A stretch of DNA of 55,580 nucleotides, taken from assembly GCF_016919725.2 (NCBI RefSeq), contig NZ_JAJERH010000024.1, positions 1 through 55,580 of the forward strand. Reading direction: 5' to 3'. This stretch comes from Virgibacillus sp. AGTR (GTDB lineage Bacteria; Bacillota; Bacilli; Bacillales; Amphibacillaceae). The stretch's first letter is position 1, and every line of letters begins with the position of its first letter. A program made the position numbers and the translations under genes. A model generated the notes under the pieces. It did no database searches. It was not told where the DNA came from and saw only the letters and a program-made list of their open reading frames with translations. Below, piece after piece: positions 37,315 to 49,398 of this stretch.

Positions 37315-38780
37315 GCGTTGGCACCTCCTAATTGAGGGCGTTGTTTATGATGATCTGTCGCTTGTTCATATGCATGGGCTGCACGGAATACGGTGTTTTC
37401 ATCAAAATGCTTCCCAATAATTTGCAGTCCGATTGGTAAGCCTTGATCAGAAAAACCGCAAGGAACAGAAATTCCTGGAACGCCTGCAAGGTTGACTGGA
37501 ATGGTTAAGATATCATTTGCATACATCGTTAATGGATCATCCACCTTTTCCCCAACCTTAAATGCTGGCGTAGGCGTAGTAGGTCCAATAACAACATCAT
37601 AGTCTTCAAAGATTTTATCAAAATCATTTTTAATTAATGTCCGTACTTTTTGAGCCTTTTTATAATAAGCATCATAGTAGCCAGAACTAAGCGCAAAGGT
37701 TCCTAACATAATACGACGCTTAACCTCTTCTCCAAAGCCTTCACTACGTGATTTTTTAAACATATCAATCATATTATTAGCATTTTCCGAACGCACGCCA
37801 TAACGGACACCGTCAAACCGAGCTAGGTTCGCAGAAGCTTCAGATGATGAAAGTAAATAATAAGTTGCCACTGCATATTTGGAATGTGGTAACGACACTT
37901 CCTCCCACGTTGCACCTAATGATTCATATACCTTAAGTGCTTGCAGAACCGATTCCTTGACCTCAGGTGCTACACCTTCAGCAAGGTATTCCTTTGGTAC
38001 GGCAATTTTCAATCCTTTCACATCACCGGTTAGTGCCTCCGTATAAGCTGGTACTTCTACAGCTGCGCTTGTAGAATCCATTGGATCATGTCCAGCGATT
38101 ACTTCCAGAACACGTGCATTATCTTCTACATTACGTGTAATTGGGCCGATTTGATCTAAGGATGAAGCAAATGCAACCAAACCAAAACGTGATACGCGTC
38201 CATATGTCGGCTTTAAGCCTACCACTCCACAGAATGCAGCTGGTTGACGAATTGAGCCGCCCGTATCTGAACCTAAAGAGAATAATACTTCTCCTGCTGC
38301 TACGGCTGCTGCTGATCCACCACTAGATCCACCAGGTACATAATCGGTATTCCAAGGGTTACGAGTTGGTTCGTAACTGGAATTTTCATTTGAAGAACCC
38401 ATTGCAAACTCATCCATGTTCAACTTTCCAATCGTAACTGCTTGCTGGTGATTTAATTTGTTAACTACAGTAGCGTTATACAAAGGGTCATTAAAATTGT
38501 CGAGGAATTGACTTGCACATGTGGTGCGTAACGCCTTTGTGACAATGTTATCCTTAATACCACTAGGCATTCCAAATAATGCGGTATGTTTATCTGCTGC
38601 CTCGTCCAATTCTTTCGCATAGGCATTAGCATTTTCTTCATTTAATGTAAGAAATGCATGAACCTTGTCATCGACTTCTTTAATCCGTTGATAAGAAGCT
38701 GCTACTAAATCTTGAACGGTAATTTCATGATTATGTAGTTTTTGTTCTAATTCTTTAATCGTATGATCAAATAATGACAT
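37311..38780 (-). CDS. gatA: Asp/Glu-tRNA amidotransferase subunit A
   Basis: 489 residues of the amidase-signature family. Catalytic Lys near residue 75 in GMPSGIKDN and the serine-rich loop [15 protein letters not shown] followed by [16 protein letters not shown], supplying the cis-Ser and nucleophile Ser. It releases ammonia from glutamine, which is channelled to GatB. ATG behind AGGAGGG; 11 nt after gatC. Confidence 0.97.
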
Positions 38781-38791
38781 GCTTTTCCCTC

Positions 38792-39082
38792 CTACTCCAA
38801 AATAGATGGTACACGATACTGTCCATCTTGCTGATCAGGAGCATTTTTCATTGCTTCCTCCTGCGTTATCCACTTCTTTGGCTCATCCTTACGAAGCACA
38901 TTCTTAATGTCTAACACGTGCGTCGTTGGCTCAACATCTGATGTATCTAATTCGTTAAGCTGCTCCGCATATGTAATGATCGAGCTTAATTGCTCTGTAA
39001 ACATTTCTACTTCTTCCTCGCTAACTTCCAAACGAGCCAAATGAGCAACATGCTTTACTTGATCCTTCGATATATCTGCCAC
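38792..39082 (-). CDS. gatC: Asp/Glu-tRNA amidotransferase subunit C
   Basis: 96 residues from the GTG at 39082, chosen because GGAGGG lies 7 nt upstream; a TTG five codons earlier would place that site inside the gene. Typical small Gat[58 protein letters not shown] and a C-terminal [16 protein letters not shown]. It wraps around GatA and GatB and stabilises the complex. First gene of gatCAB. Confidence 0.95.
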
Positions 39083-39310
39083 TAGCTTTCCCTCCAAATC
39101 TGTTTCTTCTATATTATATACATCTATTGCTTATCCATAAACTTTGGTAACACTATTGATAATAGCAGAACGACCCAACAATAATCAACTATGAAAGAAA
39201 AGCGAAGGTGTTTGATTTACGGTGCAGGAACTGCATCCATGCCTTACGTACGAAGCAGTGTTATTCAAAATGGCAATTTGCCGTTTATGCTTCTATAGGG
39301 CATCCACAAT

Positions 39311-39490
39311 TTATAAAGTAAAACTTCCATTCATGGGGGCTGTTTATCTCCACGGATGGTTAGTACCACAAGGTTATGAAGGCGTCTGAACCAATCGGAC
39401 ATTTACTGGCAGTTGTCCCCACACTTTTCCTTATTGGATTCACCTTATTGCTTGAATGGGGGGGGTTACTGCCAGTTATATGCGGGATAA
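39311..39490. repeat. Non-coding repeat family R1, copy C
   Basis: Contains CCACAAGGTTATGA and CGGACATTTACTGGCAGTTG in the same order as copy A, and the same tail TTACTGCCAGTTATATGCGGGATAAA cut here to its first part, after CTTGAATGGGGGG. It lies between opuE and gatC, in otherwise gene-free DNA (39083-39517). Confidence 0.7.
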
Positions 39491-39517
39491 AAAAAGGCAA
39501 ATTATTTTAATAAAGAA

Positions 39518-39621
39518 AAAGCCGAACTATTATTCGAATTAATGGTTGCCCCAGAAGATAGATTTTTCACTCTAACTTCTGGGAGCGATACCTACCTTAA
39601 CATTCGAATCTGTTCGGCTTT
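39518..39621 (-). terminator. Long imperfect hairpin downstream of opuE
   Basis: The outer arms AAAGCCGAAC (39518-39527) and GTTCGGCTTT (39612-39621) are perfect; ATTCGAA/TTCGAAT continues the stem and an inner CCCAGAAG/CTTCTGGG forms a second hairpin. On the minus strand TTTTTCTTTATT follows. It may end opuE transcription, but it is about 104 nt long with a three-part shape, more elaborate than a simple terminator. The 46 codons between it and opuE read like a headless protein tail (SINEFKDFIKAATNFRTSKA). Confidence 0.5.
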
Positions 39622-39736
39622 GCTGGTTCTAAAATTTGTTGCGGCTTTGATAAAGTCCTTGAATTCGTTTATACTTTTTTCTATTGTTCTTTCGTTATTA
39701 GAAGCAGCGTTTAAGCCACATCTTATTACTTGTGAT

Positions 39737-41257
39737 TTACTCTTTCAATTTTTCTAAGGTCTCGTCAAAGTCTGATTTTAGCTCAGGATCTGTTTTGCCA
39801 AGAAGACTCACAACGATTGCTACAATCATATTCATAATGAACCCGGGAACAATTTCATATAAATCAAAGATTCCACCAGAAAGTAGATCTCCCCAGATAA
39901 TAACAGTAACTGCACCAACGATAATACCTGCTAGTGCACCATTTCGAGTAATGCCTTTCCAGAATAGTGACAGGATAATGATTGGACCAAACGCTGCACC
40001 GAAACCAGCCCATGCATAACCAACGAGATCAAGAACAGAGCTTTCCGGGTTCATGGCAATAATTAATGCTACAATCGCAATCAATACCGTTGCTATTCTT
40101 CCAACCCAGACTAATTCCTTCGCAGATGCTTTTTTACGGAAAATCGCTTTATAGAAATCCTCCGCTACTGCTGATGAAGATACGAGCAATTGTGAATCTA
40201 CTGTACTCATAATTGCTGATAAAATAGCAGCTAACAGCACACCAGCTACTACAGGGTGGAATAAAATCTGTGAAAATGCAATAAAGATTTTTTCTGGATC
40301 AGCCAACACTTGAAGTCCATCTTGATTAGCCACTTCAATTCCAAATTGGCTTAGAATCGGTACTTCTTGTGTACTTATAAATGCTAATCCAATAAAACCA
40401 GTAAATATGGCACCGTAAAGTCCTAAAATCATCCACGCCGTACCAATAAATTTCGCTTTTGGTACATCTTTCGCTGAACGCAATGCCATAAAACGGACTA
40501 AAATATGCGGCTGACCAAAATAACCAAGTCCCCATGCTAGTGAAGAAATAATTGCCATTATTCCAACACCTTGAACCATATTAAGATGTGATGGATTGAT
40601 TTCTCCGACTGCTTGTACAGCGTCACTCCATCCACCCATTTGGTTTAACGCGACAATTGGTACAATAATGAGTGCAAGAAACATAAGAATACCTTGTATA
40701 AAATCAGTCCAAGATACTGCCAAAAATCCTCCAAGTAACGTATATGATACAACAACGATCGCACCGATCCAAAGTGCTGTCATATAGTCAAGACCAAAAG
40801 ATGCCTCAAATAATTTTGCACCTGCAACTAATCCTGAAGATGTGTAAAAGGTGAAGAATAATAAAATTACTAAAGCAGATATAACACGGAGAATATGTGA
40901 TCTATCCTTAAATCTATTTTCAAGGAAATCAGGGATTGTAATCGAGTTATTTGATACTTCGGTGTAAATACGTAAACGTTTGGCAACAAACTGCCAATTT
41001 AAATAAGCACCTGTTGCAAGACCAATTCCCATCCAAGCTTCTGACATTCCAGATGCATAGATTGCGCCTGGTAAACCTAGTAACAGCCATCCACTCATAT
41101 CAGATGCCCCAGCACTTAATGCTGCAACGCCTGGTCCTAGGTCTCGCCCACCGAGGACATAATCGGATAAGTTATTGGTACGATAATACATGACGACGCC
41201 GATAGCCAGCATCCCAAGTAAATATACAATAAAGGTTATTAATGTTGTAAGATCCAC
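39737..41257 (-). CDS. opuE: Sodium/proline symporter (OpuE/PutP family)
   Basis: 506 residues with about 13 membrane helices, a full-length sodium:solute symporter. Sodium-site and proline motifs are present: LSAGASDMSGWLLLGLPGAI in TM2, the SWTDFIQG block and STVDSQLLVSSSAVAEDFYK. It imports proline with sodium, for osmoprotection or nutrition. The start is GTG behind GAGGAG. In B. subtilis the gene at this place is opuE; putP is the alternative name. It follows a 34-codon mini-gene by 3 nt, so the two are translated together. Confidence 0.92.
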   Translation of the reverse strand: MDLTTLITFIVYLLGMLAIGVVMYYRTNNLSDYVLGGRDLGPGVAALSAGASDMSGWLLLGLPGAIYASGMSEAWMGIGLATGAYLNWQFVAKRLRIYTEVSNNSITIPDFLENRFKDRSHILRVISALVILLFFTFYTSSGLVAGAKLFEASFGLDYMTALWIGAIVVVSYTLLGGFLAVSWTDFIQGILMFLALIIVPIVALNQMGGWSDAVQAVGEINPSHLNMVQGVGIMAIISSLAWGLGYFGQPHILVRFMALRSAKDVPKAKFIGTAWMILGLYGAIFTGFIGLAFISTQEVPILSQFGIEVANQDGLQVLADPEKIFIAFSQILFHPVVAGVLLAAILSAIMSTVDSQLLVSSSAVAEDFYKAIFRKKASAKELVWVGRIATVLIAIVALIIAMNPESSVLDLVGYAWAGFGAAFGPIIILSLFWKGITRNGALAGIIVGAVTVIIWGDLLSGGIFDLYEIVPGFIMNMIVAIVVSLLGKTDPELKSDFDETLEKLKE

Positions 41258-41260
41258 GTA

Positions 41261-41365
41261 CTATTTTCTCCTCTCAGTAAATAAAGTAATGATCGATATT
41301 AAAAGTACAATTGGCATTGGAACAAATAACCAAAACCAGGTAGCACCTCGAATCGCATATTCCAT
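41261..41365 (-). CDS. 34-residue membrane mini-protein encoded upstream of opuE
   Basis: ATG at 41365 with AGAGAGGGG upstream and a TAG at 41261, only 3 nt before the opuE GTG. The peptide is one hydrophobic helix (ATWFWLFVPMPIVLLISIIT) with a charged tail LFTERRK. The opuE ribosome site lies inside its last codons. Short accessory peptides encoded directly before symporter genes are known in other families, so I think this is a real gene and a possible subunit. No experiment is implied. Confidence 0.72.
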   Translation of the reverse strand: MEYAIRGATWFWLFVPMPIVLLISIITLFTERRK

Positions 41366-41744
41366 ACAAACAATGCCCCTCTCTCTAAAAATATAGCATT
41401 ATTATTTTGAGATTCATTTCTCAAATAAGCACATCGACTATGATTTCATATAATTAATTATTTTTCAAGTTACATAGGGCTCACAAATGGCGCCCTATCA
41501 AGCTTCCTACTAAATAGAACTATCATATACAGTGATATGTTATGAAGAATAATCATTTTCATACATGAAAGAGATAAGAGTTCCGTATATGTAAATATAG
41601 TCCAAATCCTTTTAAATAACTCCTAATAACTCAAAATTTCTATATAAAAAATTTTTTCAATAAATTTTTCAATCTGAGCCATATGCTGTAGATTATTCCG
41701 CTAAAGTGCTGGAAGACTTCAACTTTAAGAGCCTGTGTTGGTAC
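41366..41744. other. Promoter region of opuE, no gene seen
   Basis: About 380 bp of AT-rich DNA. It must contain the promoter of the mini-gene/opuE unit, but I cannot single out one -35/-10 pair with confidence. Confidence 0.4.
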
Positions 41745-41879
41745 AAAAGGGACTAAGTGGGAGAAAACGACACCTAAATACCCAATTTGTTCAGAACCTT
41801 TGGGTCATACTCTTGTGGTACGAACATTCAGTAGGGTATGGAAGAAAACTTCTACGGAATGAAGTTTCACTTTATCGGA
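41745..41879. repeat. Non-coding repeat family R1, copy E (inverted)
   Basis: The opposite orientation to the other copies: TGGGTCATACTCTTGTGGTA, then CGAACATTCAGTAGGG and the end GAAGTTTCACTTTATC. More diverged than copies A-C. It abuts repeat R2 directly. Confidence 0.6.
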
Positions 41880-41881
41880 AC

Positions 41882-42085
41882 ATAAGTGCAAGCGCCAGAT
41901 TAGAAACGTAGAGACTGGAGCGAATCAACGAAGATAAAGGAATCACGGTGAGCTTGCGAGCCGATGATAACTTATCCTAGGGCGATTCGTGAAGTCTATC
42001 TGGACGCTAGAGCTGGACGCGGCTCAACACGCCCCTATTTCTCCATAGCCTCAAATTTTATATTTTCCTAGACTACAAAAAAAGT
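41882..42085. repeat. Structured repeat family R2, copy 2
   Basis: Aligns along its whole length with 21515-21715, in the same orientation, sharing GATTAGAAAC, GAGCCGATGAT, TTCGTGAAGTC, GAGCTGGACGCGGCTCAA and CTCAAATTT. The ends CAAGCGCC and GGACGCT plus inner GACT/AGTC arms allow a long fold-back. Confidence 0.75.
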
Positions 42086-42179
42086 CCCGGAATGGGTTCC
42101 ACGCCATCCCAGGAAAATCCATCATATAGTAATAGGGTAAAAAAATTTAAAAACCAGTTTGCGAAAAAATCAAAAATAA

Positions 42180-42323
42180 CTAAAATTGTGATACAGGTTG
42201 CCCAATAGACACAACCTCAGGCTCGAGTTCATGAGCTAATTCTGTTGAATTATTGTCATGAGTATTTAAAAATCCTATCATAAGAAGTGAGCCTAATGCC
42301 ATTGAAGCAAATAACTTCTTCAT
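42180..42323 (-). CDS. Candidate quorum-sensing propeptide (PapR/NprX-like)
   Basis: 47 residues from the ATG at 42323; AAAGGGGGG ends 6 nt upstream, while another in-frame ATG two codons earlier overlaps the spacing. The peptide starts MKKLFASMALGSLLMIGFLN, a signal sequence, and then has an acidic middle with several E and H, ending VVSIGQPVSQF. That is the layout of PapR, NprX and Phr precursors, whose C-terminal 5-8 residues are the mature signal. It begins 14 nt after the stop of an RRNPP-type regulator on the same strand. The identity of the mature peptide (SIGQPVSQF or a part of it) is inferred. Confidence 0.75.
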   Translation of the reverse strand: MKKLFASMALGSLLMIGFLNTHDNNSTELAHELEPEVVSIGQPVSQF

Positions 42324-42337
42324 TAACATCCCCCCCT

Positions 42338-43624
42338 TTAAAGATTAATTAATTCATTATAAGCTGAATTTGCTAGTTTATAATATTTAACAGATTCTTT
42401 ATACTTACCAAGCTTTTCAAAATGGCTGCCAAGCATTTTAGCATAGACAACTAAATTGCTATGGTCGTCATGCTGCTTCAGATAAGGTATAAATTCATCT
42501 GTTACTAATGCCCTGAACTTTTCTTGCTCATTGTTTAATGCATAGGTGTACGTATGAATAATATAGTAATACAGTTGATAATAATGATCATCACTAGCTA
42601 AGTCTAATATTGTTAAAGCTTTTTTAATCATTTCCTTTGTTTTTTCATAATCTCCAATATTATAATATTCTTTTATTAATGATGTTATTGATGCAAGTCT
42701 TTCTTTTATTTTTATCGCTTCATCATCTTCTTCTTCAATAACAAAAACATAGTATTTAATAGCTTCTTCAGTATTGCCAATCTTAGAGTGAGCATATCCT
42801 AAATTTAGATTCGCTAACTGAATTACCTGTTTATTTTTATTTAGTTCACCTAAATGCTTTGCTAAATTATAATTTTTAATAGCTTTATCATACATATCAA
42901 TTCTACGGTAGGAAATCCCTAACAGTATATGGCATTGGGCACAACGGATAAAATTATAATTTCGTTGAAAGACATCCATCGCCTTATTGGCATAATCAAT
43001 AACTTCCAACGTATTTCGTAACTTACTATTTGTGACTGAAATCGTATAATGTAAATCCGCAACTTCCTCTTCATCAAGATCTACCTGATTTATTTTATCC
43101 TCTGCCATCTTATACAATCGCATTGCTTGATTAAATTCTCCAGTAAATGAATAATAATTCCCCTTAAATTTGTACCAATAATAAAGATGGTCATTATCAA
43201 ATGAATTAACCATTTCACTTAATTCATTCATCTTAGATAACGCTTTATCGATTTGTCTTAAGATTATATAGTATCTAATTTTGTGAATCTCAAATAGAAA
43301 AAAGCTATCATTAATGCTTCTGTCCATTAATGCTTGTAAATCCTTATATGTATCGATTATCTCTTTTTTGTCATATACATCAAAAAGCATTGCATACCAT
43401 TGCTTACACTTTTTTTGTAAGTCTGTATCAACTCCATCGATCAATTCGATACCAAGTCGATTACATAGTAATTGAATTATTTCAGGGCTCGCGTCTGTTT
43501 TTTTATTTTCGATCTTGGATAAATAGGATAGTGAAACGATGCCTTCTGCTAACTCTCCTTGTGTCATCTCTTGCTTCGTACGCTGCAGTTTGATAAAGGG
43601 ACCTATTTCTATCAACCTTCCCAC
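42338..43624 (-). CDS. RRNPP-type peptide-responsive regulator (HTH plus TPR, NprR/PlcR-like)
   Basis: 428 residues from the GTG at 43624, or 425 from a TTG at 43615 that has better spacing to GGTGGG. Residues 10-65 form a Cro/C1-type HTH (KQEMTQGELAEGIVSLSYLS then KIENKKTDASPEIIQLL). The remaining 360 residues are TPR-like helices such as QCHILLGISYRRIDMYDKAI, QLANLNLGYAHSKIGNTEEA and MLGSHFEKLGKYKESVKYYK. The length and order match NprR (about 420 residues) more than PlcR (about 285). Such regulators bind a reimported signalling peptide and then change DNA binding. The peptide gene follows directly. Confidence 0.85.
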   Translation of the reverse strand: MGRLIEIGPFIKLQRTKQEMTQGELAEGIVSLSYLSKIENKKTDASPEIIQLLCNRLGIELIDGVDTDLQKKCKQWYAMLFDVYDKKEIIDTYKDLQALMDRSINDSFFLFEIHKIRYYIILRQIDKALSKMNELSEMVNSFDNDHLYYWYKFKGNYYSFTGEFNQAMRLYKMAEDKINQVDLDEEEVADLHYTISVTNSKLRNTLEVIDYANKAMDVFQRNYNFIRCAQCHILLGISYRRIDMYDKAIKNYNLAKHLGELNKNKQVIQLANLNLGYAHSKIGNTEEAIKYYVFVIEEEDDEAIKIKERLASITSLIKEYYNIGDYEKTKEMIKKALTILDLASDDHYYQLYYYIIHTYTYALNNEQEKFRALVTDEFIPYLKQHDDHSNLVVYAKMLGSHFEKLGKYKESVKYYKLANSAYNELINL

Positions 43625-43984
43625 CTACCATCTACTTTTTATTATGCTACTTTATTTTGTATAGTCATATTATAACATAATTTCAGATAATTCATATTGG
43701 GAAAATAATAGAGAAATGAACACTATTTATAGGCGAAACAGGCAAAAAAACTTTCCAATTTTCCTCACAGAGGAAAATTAGTCCTTGTTCGACATGAATC
43801 ATGGTAAGAAACCTGAATTATTTATATGACTATTTTATTATGAATTTACAACTTTTCGGAAGTCTTCGAAAAACACAAGTCACTTTTAGGTAATCTGGTC
43901 TGTCTCTTTCGTATAAGAATTTACGAAAAATTGTACATTATTGTTTAGTTCTCGTTTGTTTTCCTGACTTTCCTAACCAAATAA
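43625..43984. other. Intergenic stretch upstream of the RRNPP regulator
   Basis: No gene is seen. A perfect 10-bp inverted repeat, AATTTTCCTC/GAGGAAAATT with a 3-nt loop (43757-43779), lies about 135 bp before the regulator's start and could be an operator or leader hairpin. I looked for a PlcR-box (TATGNAAN4TTNCATA type) and found no good match. Confidence 0.45.
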
Positions 43985-44019
43985 AGTAAAAGGATGGAGA
44001 CGATCTCCATCCTTTTACT
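43985..44019. terminator. Terminator of the pcrB-pcrA-ligA-camS operon
   Basis: A perfect 16-bp inverted repeat, AGTAAAAGGATGGAGA and its complement, with a 3-nt loop, 15 nt past the camS stop. It can work in both directions. Confidence 0.85.
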
Positions 44020-44033
44020 TATTACTTTCTTTA

Positions 44034-45146
44034 TTAATGGAAAATATGCACCGTCGGCTTATCGGCTCCTGCCTCACGGTATATCATACTTTCTAGTTTA
44101 TCACTGGAAGTAATTTTAATCTCTAAATCATAGTAATCCTTAAACATATCCTGTACTAATCCATAGGCATACTGTGTGAAGCCAACCACTTCACCTTTTC
44201 CGTAGAATTCAATCGGGATTTCAATTGTCATCTTTTGCAATTCTTCATTCATATAGAATCCTTCCCCAATGACTCCTACATAGTTTGGAAAATATGAAGC
44301 AATTTCTTTTCCAAAGCTAGTAACGATCTCTTGATCCTCATAATATTTTTTCTTCCCCTCGTCGGAAGGGAATAAAACATATTCTTCATCAAGCGTATCC
44401 CAATCACCAATGGATGCACTATTACTAGGAACATTAGTCTTTGCAATAAAATTTCCTGGAACTGGGGAAGATTGATCTTCCTCCCTATATAAAGCCATCA
44501 TCACGGGTACTTTTTCTAAGCCCTCGATTTCTCGAATACTTTTTATGACCTTCTGGGCAATCTTATTTCCTTCCTTTAGCATTTCAGACTTGGAAATCGA
44601 TTCATAATAGTAGGGACCACCGGGCTCCGTTTGGAAGCGATAGACGGACTTCATTGCAATTCCAATCGATATTCCGGCTAATTCTACAGATTTATCCTCT
44701 TTTTTTACCAAGTAATTTTGCTCTAAAATATGAGAAAGATAACGTGGATTATCCTCAAAGTATTTTTTCTTGGCCTTTTCCTTTTTAGGCGGGTTTAACT
44801 TATCAATCCACTTAAGCACAGTATCTTCATCAATATACTGACCTTCCTGAAATAAATATTTCTTCGGATCATACACTTCCTTGGATTGACGACGTAATCC
44901 TTCCTCCATCTCATCAATATCTAGTCGATTGGCCACTTGTCCAACGATGACTCCCCTAGCTTTCCCCGGTTCAAAGGGAAGAATCATTTTATAATTTTCC
45001 TCCGATAATTGATAGCTTGGTACGATTGCTGTTTCCTGCTTCGAATCAGACTCATCGTTTTGAACAACTTCTTCTTCATTGACATCGGGAGCACAGCTTG
45101 TCACGAATAAAAGCACGCCCAGTAACCAAATACTTAATTTTTTCAT
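44034..45146 (-). CDS. camS: CamS-family sex-pheromone lipoprotein (YerH-like)
   Basis: 370 residues. The signal peptide ends in a lipobox VTSC (Cys18). The mature part is the CamS domain: YKMILPFEPGKARGVIVGQV, RRQSKEVYDPKKYLFQEGQY, ISIGIAMKSVYRF and so on. In enterococci and staphylococci the cleaved signal peptide of CamS is the source of the cAM373 pheromone; the equivalent heptapeptide here would be VLLFVTS. The role of the lipoprotein itself is unclear. ATG is 3 nt after the ligA stop, with its ribosome site inside ligA, so the genes are coupled. Confidence 0.92.
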   Translation of the reverse strand: MKKLSIWLLGVLLFVTSCAPDVNEEEVVQNDESDSKQETAIVPSYQLSEENYKMILPFEPGKARGVIVGQVANRLDIDEMEEGLRRQSKEVYDPKKYLFQEGQYIDEDTVLKWIDKLNPPKKEKAKKKYFEDNPRYLSHILEQNYLVKKEDKSVELAGISIGIAMKSVYRFQTEPGGPYYYESISKSEMLKEGNKIAQKVIKSIREIEGLEKVPVMMALYREEDQSSPVPGNFIAKTNVPSNSASIGDWDTLDEEYVLFPSDEGKKKYYEDQEIVTSFGKEIASYFPNYVGVIGEGFYMNEELQKMTIEIPIEFYGKGEVVGFTQYAYGLVQDMFKDYYDLEIKITSSDKLESMIYREAGADKPTVHIFH

Positions 45147-45149
45147 GAC

Positions 45150-49398
<4,249 letters not shown>

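Follow-up and report, generated by a model that had tools for sequence, protein, structure and literature searches.

The closest described relative of the system reported here is NprR-NprX of the B. cereus group, in which an NprR receptor of 423 aa, with an HTH and a long TPR region, is encoded beside a propeptide of 43 aa (PMC5641580). The NprX signal is the octamer SSKPDIVG, and the heptamer SKPDIVG has been seen by mass spectrometry (PMC4970707; PMC5641580); NprX propeptides are described as an exception to the rule that the signal lies at the C-terminus (PMC10075063). The Rap-Phr systems of B. subtilis and its phages share the TPR fold and the exported propeptide, and tandem-copy propeptides such as Phr3T and Phr105 are known among them (PMC11343458); Rap itself has no HTH (PMC9765709). 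PlcR, the receptor of the PlcR-PapR system, is placed in a clan with five TPRs (PMC12700828). One survey reports NprR in 21 genera and names Virgibacillus for AimR and NprR; it describes repeats in all 17 of the atypically large NprR propeptides and, across the subfamilies it lists, no more than six copies (PMC9765709). A further 21 candidate subfamilies have been proposed (PMC10075063).

The window, the stretch of 55,580 nucleotides analysed here, carries on its minus strand a gene for an HTH-TPR receptor (42338..43615) of the NprR type. An earlier note on this DNA had read the receptor as a product of 428 residues starting at GTG 43624 (ORF 42338-43624, minus strand). This GTG sits within a Shine-Dalgarno sequence, AGGTGGG (43620..43626, minus strand), that is conserved in the relatives, and comparison of gene starts finds an ATG or TTG at residue 4 or 5 in most of them; for both reasons TTG 43615, giving 425 aa, is more likely to be the start. 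The product matches HTH_3 (PF01381, E=7.4e-11, residues 11-61 of the 428-aa reading) and several TPR families, and its best solved relative is NprR (4gpk), both by single sequence (E=1e-12) and with a 50-sequence family profile (E=8.8e-28), where Rap105 and other Raps follow. A structure predicted from 11 sequences (mean pLDDT 77.9, pTM 0.73) has 18 helices in nine pairs between residues 61 and 424, after an HTH that is itself of low confidence (pLDDT below 50 for residues 1-62), and Foldseek matched this model to RapI (1.1e-11), Rap3T (4.7e-11) and NprR (4.7e-11). The HTH rules out a Rap phosphatase, whose pheromones also differ, and the nine helix pairs of the model do not fit the five-TPR receptor PlcR. 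The domains, the model and the adjacent Sec-type propeptide gene place the protein as an RRNPPA receptor of NprR-type architecture, with an HTH and the nine-TPR kind of repeat region, and the earlier description of an RRNPP regulator of NprR size holds. The same note had likened the arrangement to plcR-papR and nprR-nprX: the gene order and the predicted mechanism class are indeed those of PlcR-PapR, the architecture is that of NprR, and the C-terminal signal is the part that found no support, as set out below. Two more HTH-TPR regulators in the same genome (L015 and L022; 24% identity) have no propeptide-like ORF directly downstream.

The propeptide gene (42180..42323, minus strand) starts 14 nt past the receptor stop and comprises 47 codons from ATG 42323 (MKKLFASMALGSLLMIGFLNTHDNNSTELAHELEPEVVSIGQPVSQF). 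Its Shine-Dalgarno sequence, AAAGGGGGGG (42330..42339, minus strand), lies 6 nt before this ATG; a second ATG at 42329 abuts it and is an unlikely start. The leader, two lysines and a hydrophobic stretch, is Sec-like as judged by hydrophobicity and charge, and the NCBIfam model TIGR04429 (Phr_nterm) scores 13.8 bits on the propeptide (E=0.06), under its curated cut-off of 25. A terminator-like hairpin (42085..42114, minus strand), found by terminator scoring, ends the receptor-propeptide unit. Downstream of the pair, a repeat element of about 170 bases occupies positions 41878-42045; it is dispersed in the genome, where scoring 40 of 367 candidates gave at least 39 more copies at 81-86% identity.

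Relatives of the receptor keep such a gene beside them. Defined by a Shine-Dalgarno sequence, a hydrophobic N-terminus and a start no more than 60 nt after the regulator stop, a propeptide-like ORF follows 97 of the 112 distinct full-length regulators that share 38% identity or more with the window receptor, and another, at L088, runs into masked bases and stands outside the 97. The distance from regulator stop to ORF is 8-29 nt, with the exception of an overlap of 32 at L025; the window enters this count as 8 nt, the script having used ATG 42329. The same definition was applied as a control to 233 other long ORFs. With the product set at 30-60 aa it picked out a following ORF in four cases, one of which is the L057 regulator itself, interrupted by a late stop; with 30-300 aa allowed, it did so in five. 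The propeptide ORF is absent at 14 of the 112 loci. Eleven of these fall in three groups at 38-47% identity (L112, L113, L119, L120 and L125-L131); the others are L020 and L021, with an altered receptor end, and L017, a tandem duplicate with a truncated ORF. In a more distant receptor branch, 11 of 16 loci have a propeptide candidate. The earlier note had pointed to an overlooked ORF of 47 codons, preceded by a strong ribosome site and coding for a signal sequence, which is borne out, and had named lack of conservation beside the regulator as evidence against its reading; the pair is kept in 97 of 112 relatives. By this comparison the window holds an old and conserved NprR-type RRNPPA receptor-propeptide pair. 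The eleven receptors of the three groups, which sit at the ancestral locus described next and also lack the promoter element called site 2 below, may be orphan receptors.

Genes for camS/ligA upstream and gatC/opuE downstream flank the pair at 86 of 143 loci, a count in which duplicate records of one genome were not merged. Another 20 have gatC/opuE downstream alone, mostly with only 1.5 kb of flank, two have camS/ligA alone, and 35 have neither set; of these 35, 19 (counting fragments) belong to this genus and 16 to the distant branch. The earlier note had seen an insertion between opuE and camS, relative to B. subtilis, which we take to lack the pair at this position. Because camS-pair-(opuE)-gatC is the common order, the site of the pair is instead the ancestral one for the family, and it is opuE whose presence varies between loci. 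Receptor matches at E<=1e-40 occur in 115 of 159 family genomes and 33 of 46 sampled genera, figures that take in a second branch at about 31-36% identity, and an order-wide sample gave matches at E<=1e-20 in 169 of 299 genomes. A mobile origin was considered and rejected, with no match in 50,697 phage records (E<=1e-8) and 24 in 72,556 plasmids, the best at 33% identity. Positions 38000-48000 contain no RNA family at gathering score. Within this genus a genome may carry up to five receptor paralogues (five full-length in G001; loci L004-L030 in G001-G004 and others), mostly away from camS-gatC and with diverged peptide cores; the genome of the window has one close copy only.

The receptor is about 20% identical to NprR over the TPR region. 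Of the residues that contact NprX, R126, W167 and H201 align with R120 (R in 19 of 96 receptors, G in 55), F161 (F in 45) and K198 (K in 79), and N306 and D309, aligned by hand, with Glu and Ala. The NprX-binding residues are thus mostly not kept, for which reason we do not file the receptor as NprR itself; the differing contacts are fitting for a different ligand. At Lys198, the counterpart of NprR His201, all 63 receptors that pair with a peptide bearing Glu ahead of the proline have Lys. Receptor-peptide covariation was nevertheless set aside as evidence: on the tree Lys198 comes only tied fifth (p=0.007, uncorrected), and the strongest columns, V80 and D79, lie between the HTH and the TPRs rather than in the pocket. 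The family also differs from NprR-NprX in its camS-gatC locus and in having its own promoter motif.

Comparison establishes the gene pair, the repeated and conserved peptide core, the fold class and the promoter sites. On this basis we think it likely that the pair forms a self-contained peptide quorum-sensing unit of the NprR type. In such a unit Sec would export the propeptide, and extracellular processing at predicted cleavage points would release a Pro-centred peptide of eight or nine residues from its interior, the probable product here being HELEPEVV or HELEPEVVS. The mature peptide would be taken up again by an oligopeptide permease; the same genome encodes eight SBP_bac_5 proteins over the Pfam cut-off, a type of Opp peptide-binding protein that is common in bacteria (11 of 14 control genomes). 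It would then bind in the TPR groove of the receptor encoded by the preceding gene and switch its state, presumably as in NprR. As a DNA-binding oligomer, the receptor would act on two phased sites in its own promoter, and a tetramer could bridge them. Because the receptor would act on its own promoter sites, receptor and signal would be controlled together.

Three elements are conserved upstream of the receptor gene. Site 1 (43757..43779), the palindrome AATTTTCCTC-N3-GAGGAAAATT, is the proposed operator and also terminator-like; site 2, TTTTCCCAATATGA (43692..43705, minus strand), stands at a fixed distance from the extended -10, TGTTATAAT (43669..43677, minus strand). The consensus of the relatives is TTTCCT-N5/6-AGGAAA for site 1 and, nearer the gene, [TC]TTTCCCAATATGA for site 2, followed by the extended -10, which lies 28 or 29 nt from site 2 in 89 of 91 loci. 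An AGGAAA half-site lies upstream of site 2 at 50 bp (57 loci), 49 bp (14) or 60 bp (12), together 83 of the 91 site-2 loci; one more has it at 52, one at 42, and six have none. The 12 loci with the 60-bp spacing include the window, several paralogues of its genus and the nearest relatives outside the genus, so that the step of 10 bp may have been a single event. In eight loci (L033, L034, L040, L050, L058, L059, L060 and L064), all Ornithinibacillus where the genus is known, site 1 is lengthened: its half-sites are doubled, and the palindrome spans 42-48 bases. The arrangement suggests that receptor and propeptide are autoregulated through the two promoter sites.

How much of the receptor's output passes through DNA is a separate matter. 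The same pair could act mainly by protein-protein contact, as a Rap-like block on Spo0F that the pheromone lifts, with DNA binding confined to its own promoter; we regard this as quite possible without thinking it probable. NprR has both outputs (PMC4970707). Its Spo0F contacts E188 and Y223 and its tetramer-interface residue F225 align with E184 (82 of 96 receptors), Y220 (96 of 96) and F222 (96 of 96), equivalences read by hand from the alignments, that of E188 with E184 assuming a one-residue gap shift. The match is incomplete, however, in that NprR D107 and Y118 fall on N102 (next to D103) and K112, with no clean counterpart. The genome-wide search bears on the same reading. Allowing one mismatch, TTTTCCCAATATGA has ten matches in the genome against one in the control, and of these ten the own promoter alone has the other two elements. 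The remaining nine were rejected as targets: seven of them are contained in long ORFs, another (L161) falls in an ORF of 50 codons, and the only intergenic one (L164) carries a mismatch; none is accompanied by AGGAAA within the stretch 30-80 nt upstream or by an extended -10 at a distance of 24-33 nt. No second target promoter was thus found in the genome with TTTTCCCAATATGA at up to one mismatch, AGGAAA and the extended -10. This argument for few targets rests on a strict motif, and targets with a looser one would escape it.

A different objection would assign the two sites to some other regulator or an attenuator instead of this receptor. Conservation by itself names no binding protein, and site 1, which has a T-rich tail on the minus strand, resembles a terminator by its score, the main counter-reading to an operator; in addition, L017 retains site 2 without a propeptide, and eight propeptide-bearing loci lack site 2. 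Against this, site 1 lies upstream of the -10 and keeps a distance of 49/50 or 60 bp to site 2 in 83 of 91 loci, and in 81 of 83 both sites carry the same base at the variable T/C position. Site 2 is present at 90 of 98 loci with a propeptide and missing from 13 of 14 without one (Fisher p=8e-11, kinship ignored). The site 1 motif is also no commoner genome-wide than its reversed-pattern control, TTTCCTN{4,7}AGGAAA and the control having nine sites each. When loosely matched sites are counted as well, L or V at residue 29 of the HTH goes with T in 42 of 44 cases and M, E, S, F or Y goes with C in 49 of 49, a link that is largely one clade split. We think ownership by another factor or an attenuator unlikely, and hold with moderate confidence that sites 1 and 2 are the receptor's putative operator.

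The earlier note had proposed the C-terminal nonapeptide SIGQPVSQF (42183-42209, minus strand) as the signal. The comparison points instead to an internal core, HELEPEVV(S), at propeptide residues 31-38(39) (42207..42233, minus strand), followed by a trailer, IGQPVSQF (42183..42206, minus strand), that is the least conserved part of the propeptide. An unanchored alignment of 86 distinct single-copy propeptides was used to locate the core, since a motif-anchored profile, which was set aside, anchors on the motif itself. In this alignment an internal proline is present in 86 of 86 and is the sole invariant residue after the start, with D-x-A-x-E-x-E-P-S-[IV]-[LF]-S as its majority context. Among the 93 distinct propeptides no longer than 100 aa, 73 fit the pattern [EHQ]Px[IVAF][FLYVI]; of the 20 that deviate, 17 come from this genus, mainly from paralogues (for example QPNPT, PPSPT and HPETT), and three have TPGVL. 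Beside NprX, the window sequence LEPEVVS parallels SKPDIVG in its proline, acidic, aliphatic, valine and small residues, and the internal location predicted for the signal is shared as well; the residue before the proline is Lys in NprX and Glu in 63 of 96 pairs of the window family.

Thirteen propeptides repeat the core in tandem, with 3, 3, 3, 3, 3, 5, 5, 6, 6, 6, 7, 7 and 10 copies. The second-closest relative, L041 (regulator at 70% identity), has a seven-copy array, and the ten copies of L095 exceed the six of the NprR survey (PMC9765709). Within the arrays, positions -4 to +4 around the proline are 93-100% identical, the copies having been located by positions -2 to +1; the flanks fall to 42-69% at -5 to -7 and 34-80% at +5 to +10, with sharp borders of 69% at -5 and 34% at +5. 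Further core copies at L088 run up to the masked stretch, L025 has EPKPTA three times, and two distant propeptides repeat an EEHPDPS- or EEEP-like unit. Across 29 close pairs, which overlap one another and were picked at >=72% identity, dN/dS is lowest in the core, at 0.09, and higher in the leader (0.13), the linker (0.18) and, most of all, the trailer (0.29). The invariant proline, the repeated core and its lowest dN/dS lead us to predict that the pheromone is probably HELEPEVV, perhaps with the following S, and not the C-terminal tail.

That the mature signal is SIGQPVSQF would agree with the common rule (PMC11343458; PMC10075063), as is usual for Phr and PapR, and the last residue is often F, L or Y, with S[IV]xxP[TVS] shared in the trailer by close relatives. 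Even so we consider it improbable. The conservation of C-terminal residues that the earlier note had proposed to look for is low, at 0.7-1.5 bits in the eight trailer columns against 4.3 for the core proline, and the trailer, with a dN/dS about three times that of the core, is the fastest-evolving part of the propeptide. What the arrays repeat is the core, and L104, L118 and L122 have nothing beyond it, their final copy being cut off by the end of the protein at core +3; the exception made for NprX propeptides applies to the nearest described system. The trailer is under purifying selection and often ends in F, L or Y, and so has some role. It is highly improbable that the small ORF has no tie to the receptor it lies behind and encodes some secreted or membrane microprotein, for although the peptide is known here from its gene alone and the ORF is missing in 14 of 112 relatives, the linkage is tight, one short core is amplified in tandem and the core dN/dS is low.

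Receptor-propeptide systems of this kind are already known; the core, locus and promoter of this particular group were not met in the literature consulted. PMC9765709 was the only work found on RRNPP quorum sensing in Virgibacillus, and we met in it no pheromone sequence, locus or promoter for the Virgibacillus members; supplementary lists of this work and of PMC10075063 may hold the pair. Among the matches listed, searches for EPSIF or QPGAF with pheromone or RRNPP found neither motif, and those for the genus names with NprR gave none that mentions NprR.

A small ORF that had gone unnoticed thus becomes a candidate signalling system with concrete predictions, namely a defined pheromone of 8-9 residues and a defined promoter. 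The rule of thumb that takes the C-terminus as the signal would misdirect synthetic-peptide tests here, and the roughly 100 distinct natural propeptides found beside their receptors (86 single-copy, 13 arrays) are a resource on how receptor specificity changes. As a broader and still more tentative proposition, one that is possible but hardly likely as a whole, the pairs might represent a signalling system long rooted in the core genome of halophilic Bacillaceae that uses a pheromone alphabet of its own around [EHQ]-P-x-[IVA]-[FLV] and has diversified through 3 to 10 tandem copies and, in this genus, up to five paralogues per genome; its receptor would directly control its own promoter only, through two sites on the same DNA face 49/50 or 60 bp apart, as a bridging tetramer would, and would reach the rest of the cell by protein contact.
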